A stretch of DNA of 64,000 nt from Acidobacteriota bacterium (GTDB lineage: Bacteria; Zixibacteria; MSB-5A5; GN15; FEB-12): NCBI GenBank assembly GCA_035529075.1, contig DATKXK010000015.1, positions 1 through 64,000 of the forward strand, read 5' to 3'. This document shows, piece by piece, positions 52,269 through 63,766 of the stretch (position 1 is the first letter of the stretch; the number at the start of each line of letters is the position of its first letter). The notes under the pieces were generated by a model. That model was not told the origin of the DNA and ran no database searches. It was given only the letters and a program-made list of their open reading frames with translations. A program made the translations under genes and the position numbers.

Positions 52269-53495
52269 ATGGCACCCTGTCGTTACCGTTCAATGAACAC
52301 CAGGCTTCACGTAAACCGCCGGGATTTTCTCAAGGCCGGCGGCGTCGTTGGCGCCGGTCTGATGCTGGGCAACCCGTCCCTGTGGGCACAGGACAAAGAA
52401 AAGAACGGGGAAACGGAGAGACCCAGGACGAATATCGACGAGGCGATGAAGGTCCCGCGAACCCCGCTATCGCTGCCCGGCTGTCTTCCCGGCAAAGTGG
52501 TCGAGGTGTACGATGAACAGGCGATCGCCGACGGCCGGCCGGTCTCGGAGCGCGTTGCGAACATGTTTCAGCGGGGATTGCAGGAACTGACCGGAAAGAG
52601 TCCCGCCGACAGTTTCAACCTCTTCTTTGAGGCCGGTGATACGGTTGGTATCAAGGTCAATCCCGTGGGTGCCGGCCTGATCAGCACGCGGCTGGAGGTT
52701 GTCGATGCCGTCGTTGCCTGGCTGGAGGACAACGGCATCCCGCGCGGGAATATCGTCATCTGGGACCGCTACGATTACATGCTCAAGGAAGCGGGTTTTA
52801 CCGAAGAACGGTATCCGGGGATCGGCATAGAAGGATTGCAGACCGCGGACGAGGAGGCCATCGGCGGCGAAGCAAAGGACGACAGCCGCTGGCTGGACGA
52901 CGAAGGCAGGCACGTCAGCGTCGGCAACTTCGACATGGACGTGTACTACTGGGCCGATATCGAGGGGCCGAAAGACAAGCCCTACCTGAATCAGCACGTT
53001 TTCAACGGCAAGTATTCCTACTTCGGCAAGCTGCTCACGAAGAAGCTGACCAAGATCATAAACGTCCCCGTCTGCAAGAACACCGGGGGCGGCATCTCCG
53101 TGGCTGCCAAGAATCTCGGTTACGGCGCGGTCTGCAACACCGGCAGGCTTCACCGCGGGCTGTTCTTTGACGTGTGCACGGAAGTCATGGCCTTTTCGGC
53201 GATTCGCGATAAGCTGGTCATGAACGTCGCGGATGGATTGGTGGCGCAGTACGACGGCGGGCCGATGCCCGCCGCTCAGTTTACGTACCAGTTCAAGACG
53301 CTGTTTTTCGCCACCGATCCTTTTGCGCTGGACATGATTTGCCACAATATAATGGTGGAGAAGCGCAAGAGCATGAAGATCAAGGTAAACGAGCACCCCG
53401 TCTTCACTGACTATCTTCGCTACGCCCAACGGCTCGGACTGGGTGTGGTCGACCCGGAAAGGACGCACCACGCTCGTGTGGATATGTCCGCCTGA
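52269..53495 (+). CDS. DUF362 protein with Tat signal
   Basis: 408 residues; ATG at 52269 has GGAGGAG 7 bases upstream. The N-terminus carries a twin-arginine signal (NRRDFLKAGGVVGAGLML, LWAQ). The DUF362 core includes GIKVNPVGAGLISTRLEVV, ISVAAKNLGYG and ATDPFALDMICHN. The family is of unknown function, often found with ferredoxins; no Cys cluster motif is present here. The Tat signal predicts a folded, exported protein. Together with the homologues at 56015 and 62813 it marks the ends of the AmmeMemoRadiSam region; a DUF6599-type gene follows 24 bases on. Confidence 0.88.
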   Translation: MAPCRYRSMNTRLHVNRRDFLKAGGVVGAGLMLGNPSLWAQDKEKNGETERPRTNIDEAMKVPRTPLSLPGCLPGKVVEVYDEQAIADGRPVSERVANMFQRGLQELTGKSPADSFNLFFEAGDTVGIKVNPVGAGLISTRLEVVDAVVAWLEDNGIPRGNIVIWDRYDYMLKEAGFTEERYPGIGIEGLQTADEEAIGGEAKDDSRWLDDEGRHVSVGNFDMDVYYWADIEGPKDKPYLNQHVFNGKYSYFGKLLTKKLTKIINVPVCKNTGGGISVAAKNLGYGAVCNTGRLHRGLFFDVCTEVMAFSAIRDKLVMNVADGLVAQYDGGPMPAAQFTYQFKTLFFATDPFALDMICHNIMVEKRKSMKIKVNEHPVFTDYLRYAQRLGLGVVDPERTHHARVDMSA

Positions 53496-53519
53496 CGCGC
53501 GGGCGCCCGGAGTATCGTT

Positions 53520-54395
53520 ATGAGAACAGTATTAGTTGCAGCCGCCGTCCTGCTGGCCGCGGGCGGCATCGCGGCGGAGATCGTATATCCCGGCGATGAT
53601 TTCGTGCCCGGGTGGAAGACGGCGGGACAAACGCTTCGCTTCGTCAAGAACGACCTCTACGGGTACATCGACGGCGGCGCAGAGTTGTTTCACGAGTACG
53701 GGTTTGAAGACCTGCTGGTGCAGCACTACGTCAGGGGCGAGGATGAGATCAGTCTGGAAGTGTATCGAATGGCAAGTCCGGAATCGGCGCTCGGTATATA
53801 CCTGATCAGGTGCGGAACGGAAACCCCCGTCCAGGGCGTGCCGGTAAGGAACTCCGGAGGCTGGTCGCAGATTGCGGCTGTAAAGGGCGGTTGCTTCATT
53901 CAGGTCAACAATTTCATGGGTGACGAAGACCTCCTCCCCGTGATGGTCGAGCTGGTCAGCCGGGCAGCGACGTCCGTACCGGAAGCTGAACCCGTTCTGT
54001 TGTTAGACAGTCTGCCCCGGGAAGGCCTTGTCCCCGGAACGGAGTTGATCGTCAGGGGCCCTTACAGTCTTCAGATGATGCTCACGTTCGGCAAGGGGGA
54101 CGTGCTCGAACTGGGTTCGGAGATATTCGGTGTGGCCGGTGATTACCGGGATTCCGCCGGTGTCGTTTTCACCCGGATCGTCATTCCCTATCCGAACGCC
54201 GGGACGGCCCGGCACGCATTCGAGAGCCTGGTGGCTAACCTGGACCCGTACCTCACGGTAGAGGACGCGTGGCAGGACGGATTTACATTCAGAGACTATC
54301 AGGACAAGTTCGGCGAGGCCACGGTCGCCGAAAACGTGATCTCCATCCGCATTCACCTTCCGGCGACACCGGCACGGCCGGTCTTACAACGGTGA
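53520..54395 (+). CDS. Exported DUF6599-type protein
   Basis: 291 residues with a Sec signal peptide (MRTVLVAAAVLLAAGGIAA). The family marker YIDGGAELFHEYG recurs in the protein at 60224-61120, and the rest (VYRMASPESALGIYL, GGCFIQVNNFMGDE) follows the same plan. Function unknown. It follows a DUF362 gene by 24 bases on the same strand, and the MEMO-AMMECR1 gene converges 24 bases later, so it belongs to the cluster. Confidence 0.8.
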   Translation: MRTVLVAAAVLLAAGGIAAEIVYPGDDFVPGWKTAGQTLRFVKNDLYGYIDGGAELFHEYGFEDLLVQHYVRGEDEISLEVYRMASPESALGIYLIRCGTETPVQGVPVRNSGGWSQIAAVKGGCFIQVNNFMGDEDLLPVMVELVSRAATSVPEAEPVLLLDSLPREGLVPGTELIVRGPYSLQMMLTFGKGDVLELGSEIFGVAGDYRDSAGVVFTRIVIPYPNAGTARHAFESLVANLDPYLTVEDAWQDGFTFRDYQDKFGEATVAENVISIRIHLPATPARPVLQR

Positions 54396-54419
54396 TATGC
54401 AGTGCCCGCGACGGCGACG

Positions 54420-55919
54420 TCATTCCTCGAAGATAACGGCCTGGAATTTCTCGATGACGGCTCCCGGCGACTGGTACGCTTCAGCAGGCAGTCCGGCCTT
54501 TCTGCACGTCTGCCTCAGGAATTCCGTTCTGTCCCAGCCGTAGTCCGTTGCGACCTGGGGAAGCAGCAGTCCGCGATTACCCCCCATGGAGATCATGAGC
54601 CCGTCGCGCCCAACCTGAATCTCCTCCAGGGACTCAACCCGTTGCAAGGGTGTCAAAACCGATATTTCCAGGTGCAGGTCGGCCAGTTCCGAGGCCTGGA
54701 CCAGAGGAAATCTTGGGTCGGCGACGGCCGCCTTGACGGCACATTCCGAAACCGTCCGGTACAGCGGGGTGCTGGCGACCGTGTACCCGATGCATCCTCT
54801 CAACTGTCCCTGTTTCTCGAGCGTGACGAATGCGGCGCCCGGTTGCGCCAGAATGCCGCTGACCTCGAATGTCGGCAGATTGCCGTCTTGCAGGTAACTC
54901 TCGATGGACTGCCGTGCGATCCTCAGCAGCGTTGTCTTGTCGCTGTCAGACAACATGGCCGTCGGGATTTGTCCTCTTTCTGCATCCGGGGAGTCTGGAA
55001 GTGTCGCCTCTGATCCCTGCCCGACCCTGGCCTTATAGATCGCGGCCGCCACGTATCCCACGACCGACCCCTTGTCCCCTGAGACATCGCCGGAATCACC
55101 GTAGCGCAGAATTTTCACGCTGTTGGCGCCCCGGGCCACGGCCGCTTTTATAACGGCCACGGTCGGGCCGCCGCCGCACATCTCCACTCTGCCGCTTTTG
55201 AGGTGATTCTCAAGGCCGCGGGCATCCAGGCGCATCAGGCAGTCGATGCCGAGGGAATCCATTTTCCACCCCTCGTCGGCCGCTCGGTAGTGTTGCCAGT
55301 CCGTTGACGCGATCATGACGGTCCGGCCGCCGGGACTGAGTTTCACCATCGCCGCGGCCAAAAGCCTGGCCGTGGGTGGATCGGGCCGCCCCATGATTGC
55401 CGGCACGATTTCGAATTCTTTGAGCACTGTCTGAAGGTACGGGAGTTGGACCTCAAGGCAATGTTCAGCCTCGTGCGCCTGTGGTGATTCGGCAATCAGC
55501 GGATCGAAATCTATGAGTTCTTTGCAGAGACGGTCATCGCACGGAACCGTGCCGAGGGGCGTTTTCCATGCCACACCCGGGCCGTAGACTGAAACCCCCT
55601 CAAACCGCAGTCGGTGCGAGGGTCCGCAGAGGATGACGTTCTCGACGCCCGAATCTTCCAGCAGCTTGTAACTGTATGCCGCGATGGGCCCGGAATAGAT
55701 CAGGCCGGCGTGGGGTACGATCAGCGCTATGAGCTCGCCGTCGATCGACGCCGAGTCGCCGACCGCCGAAAGGTGATCTCCCACCATTGCCGCCAGCGCG
55801 GCGCTGTCGGCGGGATAGAAGGTGCCGGCTACGGCCGGTTCCCTGACGGTTGAGTTAGCTGCGCTGGCGCAGAACAGACCAAGTAAAAGGAAACCTGCAA
55901 GGGGAACGGCCCTGCTCAT
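54420..55919 (-). CDS. MEMO-AMMECR1 fusion with signal peptide (AmmeMemoRadiSam B and A)
   Basis: 499 residues from the ATG at 55919, backed by GAGGAGG; a longer frame has no such site. Signal peptide MSRAVPLAGFLLLGLFCASAAN. MEMO domain ~20-290: REPAVAGTFYPADSAAL, VPHAGLIYSG, CGPSHR, EHCLEVQLPYL, STDWQHY and VEMCGGGPT; the two His and the Cys match the metal-binding positions known from human MEMO1. AMMECR1 domain ~320-499 with LRGCIGYTV. The fusion of the two halves is known in bacteria, but export of both is notable. Divergent from the DUF362/AmrS operon at 56015. Confidence 0.9.
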   Translation of the reverse strand: MSRAVPLAGFLLLGLFCASAANSTVREPAVAGTFYPADSAALAAMVGDHLSAVGDSASIDGELIALIVPHAGLIYSGPIAAYSYKLLEDSGVENVILCGPSHRLRFEGVSVYGPGVAWKTPLGTVPCDDRLCKELIDFDPLIAESPQAHEAEHCLEVQLPYLQTVLKEFEIVPAIMGRPDPPTARLLAAAMVKLSPGGRTVMIASTDWQHYRAADEGWKMDSLGIDCLMRLDARGLENHLKSGRVEMCGGGPTVAVIKAAVARGANSVKILRYGDSGDVSGDKGSVVGYVAAAIYKARVGQGSEATLPDSPDAERGQIPTAMLSDSDKTTLLRIARQSIESYLQDGNLPTFEVSGILAQPGAAFVTLEKQGQLRGCIGYTVASTPLYRTVSECAVKAAVADPRFPLVQASELADLHLEISVLTPLQRVESLEEIQVGRDGLMISMGGNRGLLLPQVATDYGWDRTEFLRQTCRKAGLPAEAYQSPGAVIEKFQAVIFEE

Positions 55920-56002
55920 TCTATGACCTCCTCGGGTATAATCGGCCAACCGACCGCGCGGCGGCGTCGGGAAAACCGGTGTCGCTGGTTGCGAGTTTCT
56001 CG

Positions 56003-56008
56003 TATAAT
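56003..56008 (+). promoter_or_regulatory. -10 element directly before the DUF362-AmrS operon
   Basis: A perfect TATAAT lies only 6 bases before the ATG at 56015. If used, the transcript would start at or next to the start codon, i.e. leaderless. No good -35 is seen. Confidence 0.4.
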
Positions 56009-56014
56009 TAGTAT

Positions 56015-56935
56015 ATGAGTCGTGTCGTTGTCGTCAAGTCTAATGGTAAGCCCACGGGAAACGGATTTGGTCGACAGGAATACGTTGCCCTGCTTTCGGC
56101 CGGTCTTGGGTGGCTTTCCGGTGAGAACGAGGTGCGGGCGGCGCTGCGCAAATACCTGCCCTCAGGCACGATCGGTATGAAAACGAACTGCCTGGTCGGC
56201 AGGCGCAATTCGACGCCGGTGGCGCTGGTTGATGCGCTGTCCCAGCTGCTGACCGGCGCCGGGTTTGACGAAAATGACCTGGTCGTGTGGGATCGGACCA
56301 ACCGGGAACTGGCCGGGGCCGACTTCCCGCTCAACGCGGCTTCCAGGGGCCGGCGGTGCCTGGGCACGGACACAAACGGGGCCGGGTACAGTGAAGAATT
56401 CTACAGTTTTGGAGAAGTCAATTCTCTGGTTACTCGCATTCTTACGGACATGGTCGACCACAACGTCAATCTGCCGGTGCTCAAGGACCATTCCATAGCG
56501 GGTCTTTCGGCCGGGCTGAAGAACATGTACGGTGCGATACACAACCCGAACAAGTACCACGGCAACAACTGCGATCCCTACTGTGCCCACGTCTCCAACC
56601 TTTCGCCCATCCGGCAGAAGAACCGGCTGACCGTACTCGACGCCGTCCGGGTCCAGTATGATCGCGGTCCCGGTTTTGTCGGCAGGCATATGTACTCTTA
56701 CAACGGCGTAGTGATCTCTGATGACCCGGTGGCTGCCGACCGGGTGGGGCTGGAGATTCTGGAGCGTATCCGCGCTATCAACGGTCTGCCTTCCCTCGAG
56801 AAGGCCGGGCGGCCCGTGAAATACCTCGGTTCGGCCGAAGCGACAGGGCTCGGGACGGCCGACCTGTCGCGTATAGATCTGAACGTGGTGCTGGTTGACG
56901 CCGACGGGCGCCGTCGGCCGGGAGAACTGTTCTGA
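56015..56935 (+). CDS. DUF362 protein without signal peptide
   Basis: 306 residues starting MSRVVVVKSNG, so probably cytoplasmic or carried by a partner. DUF362 core: GTIGMKTNCLVGRRNSTPVALVDAL, SAGLKNMYGAIHNP and ISDDPVAADRVG. Its stop overlaps the AmrS ATG (TGATG), so the two are translated together, and this DUF362 protein is likely a direct partner of the radical SAM enzyme. Confidence 0.85.
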   Translation: MSRVVVVKSNGKPTGNGFGRQEYVALLSAGLGWLSGENEVRAALRKYLPSGTIGMKTNCLVGRRNSTPVALVDALSQLLTGAGFDENDLVVWDRTNRELAGADFPLNAASRGRRCLGTDTNGAGYSEEFYSFGEVNSLVTRILTDMVDHNVNLPVLKDHSIAGLSAGLKNMYGAIHNPNKYHGNNCDPYCAHVSNLSPIRQKNRLTVLDAVRVQYDRGPGFVGRHMYSYNGVVISDDPVAADRVGLEILERIRAINGLPSLEKAGRPVKYLGSAEATGLGTADLSRIDLNVVLVDADGRRRPGELF

Positions 56936-58074
56936 TGCAACGACGGTCATTCCTTCGCTGCCTTGGCTGTGGCGCCCTGGCCACCGCCGCCTGCCAGACG
57001 GAACTGCTGCCTGAATACCTGGGCGGCATACAGAATGCGTACGCCTTTGACACGGCCGGGCAACTGTCGTCGGTGGAGGCACGCTACTACAAGAAGCTTG
57101 AAGGCGGCGGAATTGAATGTCACGTCTGCCCCAGGCATTGCCTCGTGACCGACCTCGAGCGGGGTTACTGCGGCGTCAGAGAGAATCGATCCGATGTATA
57201 CTACACCCTTGTATACGGCCTGCCGTGTGCGCTGAACATCGATCCCATAGAGAAAAAGCCCCTGTTCCATTTTCACCCCGGTACGACGGCGCTGTCGCTG
57301 GCCACGGCCGGCTGCAACGTAAACTGCAAATTCTGCCAGAACTGGGAAATTTCACAGTCACGTCCCGAACAGACTGACAACCTCGACGTCTCCCCGCAGG
57401 CTCTTGTCGACATATGCAAACAGAGGCAGATTCCGACCATGGCGTACACTTACTCCGAGCCGGTCGTTTTCTACGAGTACATGTACGACACGGCCGAACG
57501 GGGGCACCGTGATTCCGTGAAGTCCGTCATGATCACCGGGGGCTTCATCGAAGAGGAGCCGCTTGCGAATCTCCTGTTACAGCTGGACGCGATTAAAGTG
57601 GATCTCAAGGCGATGCGGGAGGCGTATTACCAGAACGTGGTCGGGGGCGAACTGAAGCCGGTCCTGGACCGGCTCATCCAGATCAGGAAATCAGGCGTAT
57701 GGCTCGAAATAGTCTACCTGGTCGTGCCGACCCTTAACGACACCGAAGCTGAGTTTCGAGACCTCGCCCGCTGGGTCAAGACGTATCTGGGGCCGGACGT
57801 GCCGGTTCATTTTTCCCGGTTCTATCCCCAGTACCTGCTGAAGAATCTTCCGCCGACCCCCCAAAGGACGCTGGAAAAGGCCCACGAGATCTGTCGCGGC
57901 GAGGGCCTGGAGTTTGTGTATCTGGGTAACCTGCGCGGACATCCTGCCGAATCGACGTACTGCCCGGCGTGCGGGCAGGTTGTGATCGGACGCCAGGGGT
58001 ACCGTATCCATACATACCGATTGACCGGAAACCGCTGTCAAAAGTGCGACCGGGAGATTCCCGGGCTGTTCTGA
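56935..58074 (+). CDS. AmrS-type radical SAM enzyme with twin-arginine/lipobox N-terminus
   Basis: 379 residues. The N-terminus has a twin-arginine motif RRSFLRCLGCGALATAAC, ending in a lipobox-like LATAAC. Then CHVCPRHCLVTDLERGYCGV, the radical SAM cluster motif CNVNCKFCQNWEIS (Cys-x3-Cys-x2-Cys), MAYTYSEPVVFYEY, and a C-terminal zinc-ribbon-like pair CPACGQVV...CQKCDREI. These match the AmmeMemoRadiSam radical SAM family (AmrS). Its stop overlaps the ATG of the polytopic protein at 58075 by none but is adjacent. Export of a radical SAM protein is unexpected and may instead mean only an N-terminal anchor. Confidence 0.9.
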   Translation: MQRRSFLRCLGCGALATAACQTELLPEYLGGIQNAYAFDTAGQLSSVEARYYKKLEGGGIECHVCPRHCLVTDLERGYCGVRENRSDVYYTLVYGLPCALNIDPIEKKPLFHFHPGTTALSLATAGCNVNCKFCQNWEISQSRPEQTDNLDVSPQALVDICKQRQIPTMAYTYSEPVVFYEYMYDTAERGHRDSVKSVMITGGFIEEEPLANLLLQLDAIKVDLKAMREAYYQNVVGGELKPVLDRLIQIRKSGVWLEIVYLVVPTLNDTEAEFRDLARWVKTYLGPDVPVHFSRFYPQYLLKNLPPTPQRTLEKAHEICRGEGLEFVYLGNLRGHPAESTYCPACGQVVIGRQGYRIHTYRLTGNRCQKCDREIPGLF

Positions 58075-60213
58075 ATGAATCGTAAGGCCTTTCTGCTCGG
58101 GTTCTACGCGACTGGCGGCCAGGTGCTGCTTCTGCGCGAGCTGGTCTCCTCTCTCAACGGCGACGAACTGTTCATTGGCACGGCCCTTTTCGGCTGGCTG
58201 GTCTGGGTGGCCATTGGCGCCTACCTCGGGGGCAGGGCGGTCAGCGGACCCGGATCAAATGCGCTGTTTTCAGCCGCCATCCTTGTCCTGCCGATAACGG
58301 TCGTTCTCACGCGGCTGTCGCCAATGGTCACCACCGGCCTTATCGGTCAAATCATTCCCTTCAGCACGGCGGCGGTGGTGTCGGGCATGATGATGCTGCC
58401 GACCGGATTCATCGCCGGATGGCTGTTCCCGTCGATAACCCGGGAGGACCGCAAGGCCGCCCAGTCGATCGTGCGAGTCTACCTGTTTGAGGGCATAGGT
58501 GCCTTTGCCGCCGGGCTTATCATTGCCGTTCTCGTCGGCAGGGTGGTCGCGACGTTGGGGATGTCGGTGATTCTCGTGGCGATCGTTGGAGGCGGCCTGG
58601 CTCTGCCGCGACGGAGCCAAAGACGACGCGGGATCATTGCCGGCGCGGGCGTCATCGCGGCCGTCCTGCTGATCACGCCCTACGCAGCGTCCCATGCCGA
58701 CGCGTACCTGGAAGGCGTCAAGAACGCCTCCTACCACGTGGAGCACTCGTTCGACACCCATTACAGTCACCAGGCGATCCTGTCCCGTGACGGCAGCCTT
58801 GTCCTGTTGACCGATAACACCGTTGAAGCGGTCTATCCCAATCTGGAGTCGGCCGAGAATATGTTAATCCCGCCGCTGGCCTACAACCCCGGCGCGCGCC
58901 GGGTTCTTTTTGTGGGACGGTCCGAATTCGGGGTGGCTCAACTGGCGGACAGCGTGCGCGGACTGTCGCTTACGACCGTAGATCCCCGGCACCTGCTGAC
59001 CGAGGCGCTGAGCGATCTGCTGCCGGTATCGCCGGCTGTCCGGCAGATCGAGAACGACCCGGTGGCGCTTTTCTCGCGAGCGTCCGGCTCACCGAAGTAT
59101 GATATCATGATTGTCAATCCCGGCGAGCTTGACATCTACCGGAACAGCCGCCTGGTCACGCCGAGATTCCTCAGGGCCGCCCGGTCATTCCTGCAACCCG
59201 ACGGCATCTTGTACCTGCCCACGCGTTTCGATACCGACCGGTATATCTCGGCCGACGCGAAAGTGCTGCTTTCCGTCATCCACAACGTCCTGCGCAGTTC
59301 GTTTGAATACGTGACTATGTGGCCGGGAACCATGACCCTGTTTTTCGCCAGCGACGCGCCGCTGGCGGACCTTACTTACGATTCGGTGAGCACCCGGCTG
59401 TCCGGTCTGGGGTATTCACCACAGTACATAAGCGATAACTATCTGGTTGATCGGCTGGACGAGACTAAGGTGCAGCGCCTGCGTGAGGCGGTGCAGCAGT
59501 CAGACGCCATAAACAGCATGGAGCGGCCGGTGCTGCCACAGTATCAGGCGTGGTATCGGGCCAAAGCAAACAGCCTCGACAGGGGGCTGTTTTCGCTCAT
59601 TCTCAGGAAGCCGGCCTGGGTCGTTGCCCTCCCGGCGGCAATTGTTCTGCTGCTGGTGGTTACGATGACCGGCAGGGGAAGAAGGCGGCGGTTCGGGCTG
59701 TTTCTGTATTTTACTGCGGGCGTCGTATCCCTTTCACTGGAGCTGGTTTCGTTTTACGTCTTTCAGTCTTCGGCCGGTTCTCTTTACGCGGAGATGGCCG
59801 CGTTGATTGGTGTCTTCATGCTGGGGCTGGCCCTCGGCACGTACTTCACGGTGCGAACGGTCGGTCGGGGTGCCGAGTACTGTGCCCTGTTGATGTTCCT
59901 TGCCGCGGCGATCGTGTTCCTTCTCACTTACGGTTCCGTACATCCGCAGATGGTCTTTCCGTATCATCTGCTGTTCCTGTTTGTGAGTGCGCTGGCCACG
60001 GGGTGCCTGTTTGTGGCGGCCACGCGCCGTTTCTACGACGGGAGCGCGGCTGAGAACCGGGGCTCCGGGTACGCCTTCGAACTGCTGGGCTCAGCTGTGG
60101 GGGCTCTGTGTGCCGTTACTATCCTGCTCCCGGTCATCGGGTTGCAGTGGCTGCTTCTTTCACTGATTGCCCTGCTCGTGGCGGCCCTGATTGGCAGCCT
60201 GGCCACTTCATAA
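58075..60213 (+). CDS. Polytopic spermidine-synthase-like membrane protein
   Basis: 712 residues with about seven N-terminal (~1-205) and about six C-terminal (~510-712) membrane helices, flanking a soluble Rossmann-like domain (~230-470). The start ELVSSLNGDELFIGTALFGWL and the mid-part HYSHQAILSRDGSLVLLTDN resemble bacterial membrane-fused spermidine synthase-like proteins. In the SAM-binding loop LFVGRSEFG replaces the usual GGGDG, so aminopropyl transfer is doubtful. Third gene of the DUF362-AmrS operon, starting directly after the AmrS stop. Confidence 0.75.
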   Translation: MNRKAFLLGFYATGGQVLLLRELVSSLNGDELFIGTALFGWLVWVAIGAYLGGRAVSGPGSNALFSAAILVLPITVVLTRLSPMVTTGLIGQIIPFSTAAVVSGMMMLPTGFIAGWLFPSITREDRKAAQSIVRVYLFEGIGAFAAGLIIAVLVGRVVATLGMSVILVAIVGGGLALPRRSQRRRGIIAGAGVIAAVLLITPYAASHADAYLEGVKNASYHVEHSFDTHYSHQAILSRDGSLVLLTDNTVEAVYPNLESAENMLIPPLAYNPGARRVLFVGRSEFGVAQLADSVRGLSLTTVDPRHLLTEALSDLLPVSPAVRQIENDPVALFSRASGSPKYDIMIVNPGELDIYRNSRLVTPRFLRAARSFLQPDGILYLPTRFDTDRYISADAKVLLSVIHNVLRSSFEYVTMWPGTMTLFFASDAPLADLTYDSVSTRLSGLGYSPQYISDNYLVDRLDETKVQRLREAVQQSDAINSMERPVLPQYQAWYRAKANSLDRGLFSLILRKPAWVVALPAAIVLLLVVTMTGRGRRRRFGLFLYFTAGVVSLSLELVSFYVFQSSAGSLYAEMAALIGVFMLGLALGTYFTVRTVGRGAEYCALLMFLAAAIVFLLTYGSVHPQMVFPYHLLFLFVSALATGCLFVAATRRFYDGSAAENRGSGYAFELLGSAVGALCAVTILLPVIGLQWLLLSLIALLVAALIGSLATS

Positions 60214-60223
60214 TGCAGACCGA

Positions 60224-61120
60224 CTACGGCAGCGTACTCAGCCAGAGACTCAGAAACTCCCGGTGAGGCTCGCTGTAGCCCACCATTCCCACTACCCTGC
60301 CACCGCGCAGACCGCCGATGACTGCGCCACCGGAACCGTCATCGGTGCCAAAAGCCGTGCCGTTCTCGAACACGAAGGTGCCGGAAGTCGAGTCACGTAA
60401 CCCCATCTCGTCAAGTCTGGCCTGCCACCGGGAGAGCGCGTCACCGGACATCGTCCCGGATACGAACAGCATGACCGTGTCACCGGCCAGAAAGAAGCGC
60501 CGCGTATAGATACCGGCAAGAAACTCGCGACCGAGAAAGGATTGGACGAAGTACTGATCGCCGGCAACAACCGTGCTGTCGGCCGGGAACAGCGAAAAGG
60601 CCTCAGGTGGCAGGGTGGTCCCGGGGACGCGCGGCTCGATCTCCTGCGCCGCCTGCATCAGGGCGCGCGCGGTTTCCTCGGATTCGTCGTAACCGGTCAG
60701 GGCCACCAGGAACTCACCCTTCACGAACTGAAGGTTGGCCGTGGAAACGATGCCCTCCACGCCGAGCGAGACCAGGTTGGGGGAATCGGGCCGCGCGAGC
60801 GAGTACAGCCCGTACGCATCCGTGGCGTTGTCGAATCGAAAGATCTCCACGACGATGGCTGTGTTGTCATCCCCGTATTCGGCTGTGGCGACCTCCTGGA
60901 AATTGTACGACAGAAACAGTTCGGCTCCGCCGTCGATGTATTCCCAGAGCGTAGAGTCCGTAAAGACGCTGACTTCCGAGGACCTGGCCAACCGGCCTTC
61001 GGCCACCGTATCGGGCAGAAGATCGGCGGAGTGGACGATCCCGGCCTGTTTTGCACCGTCGCCGCACGTGACGGACAAGAGGACGAGTACGCTCAGCAGC
61101 GACACGGCAGTTTTACTCAT
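60224..61120 (-). CDS. DUF6599-type probable lipoprotein
   Basis: 298 residues. Signal peptide with lipobox (MSKTAVSLLSVLVLLSVTCG, Cys19), then EVSVFTDSTLWEYIDGGAELFLSYNFQ, sharing YIDGGAELF with the protein at 53520. It overlaps the end of the ferredoxin membrane protein gene by 8 bases, so both are cotranslated. Anchored on the outer face of the membrane, it may be a partner of the ferredoxin or DUF362 components. Function unknown. Confidence 0.8.
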   Translation of the reverse strand: MSKTAVSLLSVLVLLSVTCGDGAKQAGIVHSADLLPDTVAEGRLARSSEVSVFTDSTLWEYIDGGAELFLSYNFQEVATAEYGDDNTAIVVEIFRFDNATDAYGLYSLARPDSPNLVSLGVEGIVSTANLQFVKGEFLVALTGYDESEETARALMQAAQEIEPRVPGTTLPPEAFSLFPADSTVVAGDQYFVQSFLGREFLAGIYTRRFFLAGDTVMLFVSGTMSGDALSRWQARLDEMGLRDSTSGTFVFENGTAFGTDDGSGGAVIGGLRGGRVVGMVGYSEPHREFLSLWLSTLP

Positions 61121-62813
61121 AATCCCGGCTCCTGTTAGCGGTCCGCGGTTTGGCTTTTCGGCGTCGAAGCAGAATCTGGTTTCGGGCCGAACGTGATTCG
61201 CCCACCGAGGTCATGTAGACGGCTGGTCGATCAATGACGGGGCAGGCGTATTCACACGCTCCGCAGCCCGTGCACAATTCCGGGTCAACGTATGGCCGCT
61301 TGACCCTGACCTCTTTTCCCCGGCTGTCATATGCGATTTCGTCCCGGAGATAAACGGACTTGGGAGAGGTCGGGCACCACTCTTCGCAGACGATGCACGG
61401 CGTAGCCATGGCCCACGGCAGGCACCGCCCGCGGTCAATAAACGCGGTGCCTATACGGTTGGGCGGCGTGTCCTGGTCACCGACCTTTTCGACCAGCGAA
61501 AGCTCGGCGATAGCGCCGGTCGGGCACACCTGGCCGCAGAGCGTGCAACTGGGCTCACAGTAGCCGATCCTTGCAATCAGGACGGGGGTCCATATGCCCT
61601 CCAGGCCGGCCTCGAACAGGGTGGGATGCAGGGCGTTGTTCGGGCACACGCGCATGCACTGGCCGCACCTTATACAGCGGCCGAAGAAATCGTCTTCCGG
61701 TGCTGCGCCCGGGGGACGGATCAAGCGGGGGTTGCTGTTGACCTCGAAGGCATCGCCGGACCGGAAAAGCGGAAACAGTACCAGCCCGCCGGCCACGGAG
61801 GCGGCAAATTTCCGCCGCGTAACGTCCACTTTGGGTGTCCCGGCGGGATTGGCCTGCGTACTGACCTGCTCGGGGAAGAACCTGAATCTCAGGGCGTTGC
61901 TCGGGCATTCCGCCTGGCAGTTCAGGCACAGGTGGCATTCGGTTTGCCGCCAGGGGGAGCCTATCTCCGGGTCGTCCGCCCCCTGGCAGGAAAGAAGGCA
62001 CTTGTGACACTGGTCGCACCCTGATTCGACCTTCTCCAGGCCGAATATGGCGAACCTGGAAAAGACGCCAAGGAGCGCCCCCAGCGGGCATATCCCACGG
62101 CACCAGAAACGGGTGAAAACTCTGTTGAGGGCCAGGATGACAATGAAGAAAAGGCCGATGGATACGACCGTGTGAAAGTAGTTCTGGCGAAAAGGCAGCA
62201 GAGCCCAAGCTGTAAGTTCATAGACGGACCGCGCCCCGGTAGTAAGCGGTGGCAGGCCGATGGTTCCGACCCATTCAACCAGGCGCAGGGCCCCGGTATG
62301 GATAACCGGCAGAACGAACGTTCCGATGGAGCGCGCCAGCAACGACAGCGGGTCGAGCAGACCCACCTGCAGCGTGCCCGCCGTCGCCGCGGCCAGAAAG
62401 GCGAACAGGATATAGTACTTGAGACGCTGGTATTTCTTGTATCGGTTTGACTCAATCTTGCGAGCGCCGCGTCTGCGGGGTCTCTCGGACCGGATCTCGG
62501 AAATCCAGTGGTTGACCGAACCCAGCGGGCATACCCAGCCGCAAAAGAAACGCCCGAGGAAGATCGTGGGGATCAGGACGACGAGCGACCACAGCAGGCC
62601 CTTATACACGGTCCCGCTGGAAAGCAGGGTGGCGATCGCCACCAGGGGGTCGAACTCCAGGGCGATTGAAACCGGGTAGGGCAGACGGATCTCCGTGATG
62701 TCGGCGGGGCGAAAACTCACCTCGAAGGTGGTCTTGAGCACGAGCCAGAAGAATACTGCGAAGAACACTACTTGCGAGATGCGCCGAAGGTTTCTGACAG
62801 TACGGACGTGCAT
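61113..62813 (-). CDS. NapH-like polytopic ferredoxin protein with internal twin-arginine segment
   Basis: 566 residues. About five N-terminal membrane helices with the NapH/MauN/YccM signatures CGWVCPLGSVNHW and CRGICPLGALLG; then several 4Fe-4S motifs: CDQCHKCLLSC, CHLCLNCQAECPSN, CIRCGQCMRVCPNNA, CTLCGQVCPTGA, CIVCEEWCP and CTGCGACEYACPVIDRPA. Near residue 330 TRRKFAASVAGGLVLFPL resembles a Tat signal in the middle of the chain, as if a NapH-like and a NapG-like protein were joined. Likely moves electrons from the quinone pool to envelope partners. Starts at the stop of the DUF362 gene (TGATG) and overlaps the lipoprotein gene. Confidence 0.88.
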   Translation of the reverse strand: MHVRTVRNLRRISQVVFFAVFFWLVLKTTFEVSFRPADITEIRLPYPVSIALEFDPLVAIATLLSSGTVYKGLLWSLVVLIPTIFLGRFFCGWVCPLGSVNHWISEIRSERPRRRGARKIESNRYKKYQRLKYYILFAFLAAATAGTLQVGLLDPLSLLARSIGTFVLPVIHTGALRLVEWVGTIGLPPLTTGARSVYELTAWALLPFRQNYFHTVVSIGLFFIVILALNRVFTRFWCRGICPLGALLGVFSRFAIFGLEKVESGCDQCHKCLLSCQGADDPEIGSPWRQTECHLCLNCQAECPSNALRFRFFPEQVSTQANPAGTPKVDVTRRKFAASVAGGLVLFPLFRSGDAFEVNSNPRLIRPPGAAPEDDFFGRCIRCGQCMRVCPNNALHPTLFEAGLEGIWTPVLIARIGYCEPSCTLCGQVCPTGAIAELSLVEKVGDQDTPPNRIGTAFIDRGRCLPWAMATPCIVCEEWCPTSPKSVYLRDEIAYDSRGKEVRVKRPYVDPELCTGCGACEYACPVIDRPAVYMTSVGESRSARNQILLRRRKAKPRTANRSRDYE

Positions 62814-63766
62814 CAGACGATCTCTTTGTATCCGATGGACCGGTAATCGACCGTGCCCAGCCCGGATTGCTCGCCCAGGACGATGTGGCCGACGCGGTCG
62901 CCCTGAAGGCCGAGGAATTCCGCCGCCCGCGCGTCAGCCGCCACGGGATCGGTCGAACATATGACCGTGTCCTCCCGTGCCACGTAGTCAAGCGACCCTC
63001 CCTGCGGGCCGCCCCGCAACAGGACCCGGGTGGCATCGACCACGGTAAGCGTGGGGCGGCAGAAACTGACAAGGTCGACTATAGACTGGTCTATGTGCTG
63101 GTGCAACTGGTTGCGTCGTCCTCCGAGTATGCCGTACAGGTTCTTCATGCCGACAGTACACTGACACATCGAGTGCTGCTTGGTGATAGGCATGTTGATC
63201 AGCCTGTCCGTCTCTACGAAGTATTGCAGCACGGGCCAGGCCGTCAGGATTTTCCCGCCCAGATCCATTGTCACGAAATCGGCGGGTCTCGGGAGCATGA
63301 CGCGGGCGCCGGCTTTCTCAGCGGCATCTCTTATGCCTGACCGGAGAAAGCAGCGGCGCGAGTCGTTGCAGCTTACGTCGGTGACTATCACTTCGGCGGC
63401 GCCGGCAGCCAGACAAATCCTGGTCATTTCAGCCACCAGTACGGGATTGGTATTGGCAGCCTGGGCCGCCGTTCTGTCCCACCCGATGTTGGGCTTTATC
63501 GTCACCCGCTCGCCCGCAGTAACAAACCGTTGGATGCCGCCCACGGCGTCGAGGGCAGCGTGAAGGGCAGCCGCCGGATCGTTATGCCGGGCCAGCGCAA
63601 CCTGCGGCAGGGACGGGTCCGGGGGCACCTCGAAGTTGCTGACCTTGGTCATGACCGGCTGATAAGAAGCGGTCTGGCGGTTGTGAAAGAGAACACCGGT
63701 CCCGCCGGTCACCGCCGCCAGGGCCAGGGCCTGACCGGATTTCTTGAGGAATTCTCGTCGCTGCAT
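62813..63766 (-). CDS. DUF362 protein with Tat signal
   Basis: 317 residues from the ATG at 63766; a longer frame to 63988 adds an unrelated leader. Twin-arginine signal RREFLKKSGQALALAAVTGG, then the DUF362 core: IKPNIGWDRTAAQAANTNP, CTVGMKNLYGILGG and CSTDPVAADARAAEFLG. First gene of the three-gene operon on this strand, with a promoter at 63799-63827. It is probably exported, and its neighbour supplies electrons. Confidence 0.88.
   Translation of the reverse strand: MQRREFLKKSGQALALAAVTGGTGVLFHNRQTASYQPVMTKVSNFEVPPDPSLPQVALARHNDPAAALHAALDAVGGIQRFVTAGERVTIKPNIGWDRTAAQAANTNPVLVAEMTRICLAAGAAEVIVTDVSCNDSRRCFLRSGIRDAAEKAGARVMLPRPADFVTMDLGGKILTAWPVLQYFVETDRLINMPITKQHSMCQCTVGMKNLYGILGGRRNQLHQHIDQSIVDLVSFCRPTLTVVDATRVLLRGGPQGGSLDYVAREDTVICSTDPVAADARAAEFLGLQGDRVGHIVLGEQSGLGTVDYRSIGYKEIV

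Follow-up and report, generated by a model that had tools for sequence, protein, structure and literature searches.

Our findings point to an AmmeMemoRadiSam system whose parts are predicted to work outside the cytoplasm. The known AmmeMemoRadiSam trio, which consists of MEMO, AMMECR1 and the radical S-adenosylmethionine (SAM) enzyme AmrS, is treated as cytoplasmic. In the window, by which we mean the whole 64,000-nucleotide stretch at the start of contig DATKXK010000015.1, the trio is encoded together and, unlike the known system, AmrS and the MEMO-AMMECR1 fusion carry predicted export signals and stand together with a SpeE-like protein with 14 transmembrane (TM) helices, DUF362 and DUF6599 proteins, and transmembrane electron carriers. 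These export-type N-termini, as predicted, argue against the general assumption that the trio is cytoplasmic, and the predicted extracytoplasmic location of the window set is well supported. We regard it as probable that the cluster represents an extracytoplasmic AmmeMemoRadiSam variant that is supplied with electrons across the membrane and possibly, by way of the 14-helix protein, with SAM.

Each part of the trio scores above its curated cut-off: AmrS with 368.2 bits (TIGR04337, cut-off 220), MEMO with 246.8 bits (TIGR04336, cut-off 26) and AMMECR1 with 179.9 bits (TIGR04335, cut-off 99), and the catalytic motifs of the known system are conserved. Family scans of the window returned three PF04015 and two PF20244 proteins, and the partners originally named, namely three DUF362 proteins (two with signals for twin-arginine translocation, Tat), two DUF6599 proteins (one lipoprotein-like), a polytopic SpeE-like protein and a NapH-like ferredoxin, are all present between positions 52293 and 63766. 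The components had been assigned to three transcripts, a count that needs correction: the open reading frame (ORF) listing gives four units, DUF362a-DUF6599a (+), MEMO-AMMECR1 (-), DUF362b-AmrS-SpeE-like (+) and DUF362c-NapHG-DUF6599b (-). The ATG of AmrS overlaps the stop codon of DUF362b (TGATG), with the SpeE-like gene following directly after AmrS, and genes in the last unit overlap by 1 and 8 bases. The features are as follows.

52293..53495, + strand: DUF362a (PF04015, 50.5 bits; TIGR01409), Tat signal NRRDFLKAGG, also matched by PF10518 TAT_signal above cut-off (28.8 bits); alternative start at 52269
53520..54395, + strand: DUF6599a (PF20244, from the family scan), signal peptide of the general secretory (Sec) type, judged from the sequence
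54420..55919, - strand: MEMO-AMMECR1 fusion, signal peptide at the N-terminus; the ATG at 55919 is the likely start, and the ORF extends to a TTG at 55949
56015..56935, + strand: DUF362b, no signal peptide, LarA-like fold (family scan and structure model)
56935..58074, + strand: AmrS, AmmeMemoRadiSam radical-SAM enzyme of the exported class (TIGR04337)
56935..57045, + strand: Tat-like signal of AmrS, MQRRSFLR...NAYA/FD (slash at the presumed cleavage point), with RR pair and AxA site
57313..57336, + strand: CxxxCxxC radical-SAM cluster motif of AmrS (C127, C131, C134)
58075..60213, + strand: SpeE-like 14-TM protein, 712 residues; a spermidine-synthase-like domain of aminopropyltransferase fold lies between TM7 and TM8
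58690..59610, + strand: aminopropyltransferase-fold domain of the SpeE-like protein, predicted extracytoplasmic
60224..61120, - strand: DUF6599b, lipoprotein-like N-terminus
61113..62813, - strand: NapH-NapG fusion (Fer4_5 membrane ferredoxin, Tat-like helix with RRKFAAS, NapG-like polyferredoxin)
62813..63766, - strand: DUF362c, Tat signal MQRREFLKKSG

Predicted export signals on AmrS and MEMO-AMMECR1

The Tat assignment of the window AmrS rests on an RR pair, a hydrophobic stretch and an AxA site. Among the window-type AmrS proteins of the phylum (class-B, n=38 including the window), the RR pair is present in 38/38 and an AxA site resembling that of signal peptidase I precedes the mature domain in most. 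Scoring of the N-termini as cytoplasmic by signal predictors had been named beforehand as a refutation of the original prediction; put to this test, an in-house heuristic that combines the RR pair with a hydrophobic 12-mer recognized 18/18 class-B and 44/45 exported AmrS of other phyla, versus 5/37 of the cytoplasmic type. The N-terminus had been called Tat/lipobox-like, of which the Tat-like part holds; the lipobox was rejected, as its cysteine is not kept in relatives while the AxA site is kept in most. The catalytic core appears largely intact: CxxxCxxC is found in 38/38 class-B and 57/57 other exported AmrS, the SAM-site motif Y-[TSN]-Y-[SNT]-EP in 38/38 class-B proteins, and DPIEKKP in every exported AmrS. 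The nearest solved structures by sequence are those of PflA and other glycyl-radical activases (3c8f, E 4e-11); unlike PflA, AmrS bears a predicted export signal and additional cysteine motifs, 4-Cys at the N-terminal and CxxC..CxxC at the C-terminal end, and the window cluster encodes no glycyl-radical enzyme.

The MEMO-AMMECR1 fusion carries an N-terminal signal peptide visible in the sequence, in agreement with the Sec signal originally proposed. Its homologs beside exported AmrS have a signal peptide or a lipobox, and those beside cytoplasmic-type AmrS (L142, L174, L175) have no signal. The genome itself (3.04 Mb, 21 contigs, 100% complete), which encodes TatC, offers a further comparison: a second AmrS on contig 10 and a second MEMO-AMMECR1 fusion on contig 3 (L077) lack N-terminal signals and have none of the window cluster's partners, and thus serve as a within-genome control for the export-type set. 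In the window MEMO, the residues aligned with the iron/copper ligands of human MEMO1, H49, H81 and C244 (PMC11081632), and with D189/H192 are all conserved.

A further indication of location comes from six AmrS proteins (L065, L111, L122, L131, L146, L149) that span several phyla, L065 belonging to the window's own class, in which a CxxCH motif lies between the Tat signal and the radical-SAM core. Haem c is attached covalently outside the cytoplasm, so that this motif, if it binds haem, would be independent evidence of an extracytoplasmic location. The Magnetochrome model matched weakly in two of 45 scanned AmrS.

Some variation within the AmrS family was also noted. HFxRFxP occurs in 41/45 exported AmrS and HFxAFxP in 13/37 cytoplasmic and 0 exported ones, and the differing residue possibly marks the class. 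A third class, scoring >620 bits with TIGR04337, occurs in a few genomes of the phylum (G109, G105, G104, G031, G103, G021, G029) and has no export signal where inspected.

Conservation of the cluster and its membrane partners

Searching 110 genomes of the phylum with the AmrS profile gave a match above cut-off in 93; 40 loci were taken for the window's class, 37 of them Tat-type. The SpeE-like gene stands at 36/37 Tat-type loci versus 0/18 other AmrS loci in the phylum (p 1e-13), DUF362b at 32/37 versus 0/18, and the order MEMO-AMMECR1 (-), DUF362b (+), AmrS (+), SpeE-like (+) is kept in many loci of the class. NapHG is attached at 10/37 Tat-type loci, in the families closest to the window, and DUF362a and DUF6599a do not always accompany the core. 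A scan beyond the phylum with the class-B alignment recovered 80 loci, mostly in metagenome-assembled genomes for which single taxon labels may be wrong, from many phyla including Omnitrophota, Planctomycetota, Bacteroidota, Acidobacteriota, Myxococcota, Thermodesulfobacteriota, Latescibacterota, Poribacteria, KSB1, Altiarchaeota and Aenigmatarchaeota. By AmrS N-terminus, 39 of these are Tat, 5 Tat with CxxCH, 12 Sec or anchored, 4 ambiguous and 20 cytoplasmic; AmrS thus seems to leave the cytoplasm through Tat in most lineages and through Sec in Omnitrophota and related groups. The ambiguous four (L113, L133, L135, L140) have no clear N-terminus, L135 being cut by a contig end, and were set aside. 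In two of them (L133:5379-6404, L140:2375-3418) an anchor-like N-terminus lies upstream in a different frame from the catalytic AmrS ORF, which is a split gene, a frameshift or a sequencing error.

The SpeE-like gene lies beside 32/56 exported versus 0/20 cytoplasmic-type AmrS (Fisher 2e-6; many contigs are short), and one Acidobacteriota contig (L097) holds NapG, DUF6599, two DUF362, AmrS, MEMO-AMMECR1 and the SpeE-like protein together. In a quick AmrS tree, supported by the Shimodaira-Hasegawa-like approximate likelihood-ratio test (SH-aLRT) only, the exported proteins form nearly one clade, with four changes of location overall. Recurrent-neighbor clusters 1 and 4 resemble antisense or spurious frames and were ignored. 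A conserved neighborhood in relatives had been set beforehand as a test of the original prediction, and the neighborhood is indeed conserved, in relatives as well as in distant phyla; dozens of genomes repeat this set of genes in this order.

The SpeE-like protein has 14 predicted helices and a domain of ~307 residues after helix 7, between two 7-TM halves. The mean number of Lys and Arg per loop alternates between ~2-3 inside and ~0-1 outside, and this alternation, following the positive-inside rule, places the domain outside. Its AlphaFold2 model is confident (predicted local distance difference test, pLDDT, 88; predicted template-modeling score, pTM, 0.91), and the soluble domain, which dominated the fold search, matches the aminopropyltransferase fold (7xif by hmmsearch, 5e-24; 1uir and 3anx by Foldseek, with a target-normalized template-modeling score, TMt, of ~0.67).

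Electron carriers form the second group of membrane partners. Exported AmrS genes have as neighbors DsbD-like transmembrane proteins (PF13386), NosR-like proteins with flavin mononucleotide (FMN)-binding and Fer4_5 domains, triple fusions and NapH-type ferredoxins; a transmembrane carrier adjoins AmrS at 11/12 Sec-type loci and at some Tat loci, and near the cytoplasmic-type loci no convincing carrier was seen, weak ferredoxin-like matches alone being present. The membrane electron supply that had been inferred for the window gains independent support from these lineage-specific carriers (NapGH, FMN-NapH, DsbD-like) beside exported AmrS, or from a haem-c motif in AmrS itself. At two loci (L148:1735-3435, L150:5576-7252) a DsbD_2, FMN_bind and Fer4_5 triple fusion stands beside AmrS and is apparently a dedicated transmembrane electron conduit. 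The carrier of the window shares with the NapG/NapH quinol dehydrogenase a Fer4_5 membrane ferredoxin and a NapG-like polyferredoxin. Unlike NapG/NapH, it is a single fused chain scoring below the curated cut-offs (NapG 101.9/269, NapH 71.3/213), and no nitrate reductase is encoded in the cluster.

To the right of the cluster (L090, contig positions 64001-72000), inspection by eye found arsenite-methyltransferase-like, radical-SAM-like and corrinoid/methyltransferase-like ORFs.

Proposed mechanism and alternative explanations

The sequences establish which genes are present, that they are conserved and retain their catalytic motifs, that the N-termini are of export type, and that a membrane SpeE-like protein and electron carriers are linked to them; we infer the substrate and chemistry of the system, the role of the SpeE-like protein and the order of the steps. 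In the proposed mechanism, AmrS would fold around its [4Fe-4S] cluster in the cytoplasm before being exported by Tat (Sec in some lineages), and MEMO-AMMECR1 would pass through Sec or become a lipoprotein; two of the DUF362 proteins and both DUF6599 proteins would likewise be outside. The NapH-NapG fusion would carry electrons to the outer face and reduce the AmrS cluster, a role that elsewhere may be taken by FMN/NapH proteins, DsbD-like proteins or haem c in AmrS itself. The SpeE-like protein, with its outward domain of nucleoside-binding type, is the best candidate to handle or supply SAM, or to remove its cleavage products, outside the cell. AmrS would then form a radical on a substrate outside the cytoplasm, and the next step may be carried out or bound by AMMECR1 and the iron site of MEMO.

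Several points weigh against this proposal. Neither periplasmic SAM nor a periplasmic reductant of sufficiently low potential is, to our knowledge, established, and a menaquinol-linked NapGH donor would be too weak without extra driving force. Many Tat-type loci, often outside the window's phylum, are without an adjacent electron carrier, and the 80 loci were initially assigned to the exported and cytoplasmic types by eye. Pfam TAT_signal and other curated Tat models do not match the window AmrS and match just 4/18 class-B and 10/45 other-phylum exported AmrS. Within the presumed AmrS signal peptide, RCLGCG and GGIQNA are unusually conserved in the window's close relatives, and DUF362b, encoded in one transcription unit with AmrS, lacks a signal. 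The proposal is most vulnerable at this last point, at the reducing power and at how SAM would be supplied in the periplasm.

The alternative that we take most seriously, though we judge it unlikely, is that exported AmrS performs its radical chemistry before export, for example by modifying or maturing partners in the cytoplasm together with DUF362b, or serves outside as an iron-sulfur electron-transfer or metal-binding protein without SAM. Tat substrates do fold with their cofactors before export, the signal-less DUF362b is translationally coupled to AmrS, and we know of no periplasmic SAM pool. However, the Sec lineages (Omnitrophota) would export AmrS unfolded, and there it could therefore hardly act inside first; the DUF362 proteins adjoining AmrS in other phyla nearly all have an RR start; and the SAM-site and cluster motifs are largely intact, with transmembrane electron carriers adjoining AmrS. 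The DUF362b model (pLDDT 94.6) finds its best matches, which are partial, in LarA-type structures (query-normalized score, TMq, up to 0.50). The genome holds five DUF362 proteins above cut-off, three of them in the cluster, and DUF362 shares a Pfam clan with LarA of the lactate racemase superfamily (PMC11770544). Unlike LarA systems, however, this genome has no LarC and no LarE above cut-off, which makes the nickel-pincer (NPN) cofactor unlikely here, and it was rejected for DUF362 in this genome.

Less probable again is that the proteins act at the membrane from the cytoplasmic side; the N-terminus of AmrS would then be a conserved, uncleaved segment or anchor rather than an export signal. 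The unusual conservation of this stretch in the closest families, with its CxxC-like cysteines, and the frequent failure of curated Tat models on AmrS would fit such an arrangement. It is difficult to reconcile with the Sec-type signals of other lineages, the signal peptides and lipoboxes on MEMO-AMMECR1, the CxxCH haem-c motifs, the outward SpeE domain and the electron carriers of periplasmic type, all of which indicate a location outside.

We consider it very improbable that the cluster belongs to polyamine metabolism, with the SpeE-like protein as a normal spermidine synthase bound to the membrane. The profile and fold of the protein do match aminopropyltransferases, and SpeD is encoded in the window's genome. 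Unlike in spermidine synthase, however, the domain sits between 7-TM halves and is predicted to face outward, and most members have another residue in place of the catalytic Asp of the DxxD region; the GGGxGG loop has degenerated in the window's group, and the acid that binds ribose is for the most part retained. Of the 110 genomes searched in the phylum, 48 gave no SpeD, most of them from other orders of the window's class, and the carriers of the cluster without a detected SpeD include, among those listed, G005 (96% complete) and G066 (81%). Spermidine synthesis was rejected on the catalytic Asp and the SpeD evidence, and we suggest instead that the protein handles SAM or a related nucleoside. 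Finally, chance adjacency of independent genes, to which the four separate transcription units and the inconstant DUF362a and DUF6599a might point, is hardly credible, since the core order persists throughout the class and the partners are linked in different phyla as well, and the neighborhood counts contradict it.

Novelty and implications

Radical-SAM chemistry is thought to be cytoplasmic because SAM and strong reductants are located there, and among the papers available to our search none describes periplasmic or exported radical-SAM enzymes. As far as we found, an exported AmmeMemoRadiSam set is undescribed so far. We claim this with reserve, because Burroughs et al. 2019 (J Biol Chem 294:10211), who reportedly extended the gene contexts of Memo and linked it to nucleotide-base and isoprenoid modification, may already mention some of the partners. 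In its broadest form, our tentative proposal, which we hold with less confidence than the reading of the window itself, is that bacteria and some archaea share a widespread class of radical-SAM enzymes whose site of action is extracytoplasmic. A dedicated 14-helix protein, its outward domain being of SAM-binding type, would bring SAM across the membrane, and lineage-specific transmembrane carriers would bring the electrons, among them a haem c fused to the enzyme.

MEMO and AMMECR1 are conserved to humans, and AMMECR1 has a link to disease. If the location proposed here is correct, the possible function of both proteins would be narrowed, as the substrate of this branch would be neither RNA nor a cytosolic metabolite, and the route by which SAM and electrons of low potential get to the outer face would become a question that has to be faced. 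The linkage to the SpeE-like protein and the electron carriers offers concrete tests of these ideas.

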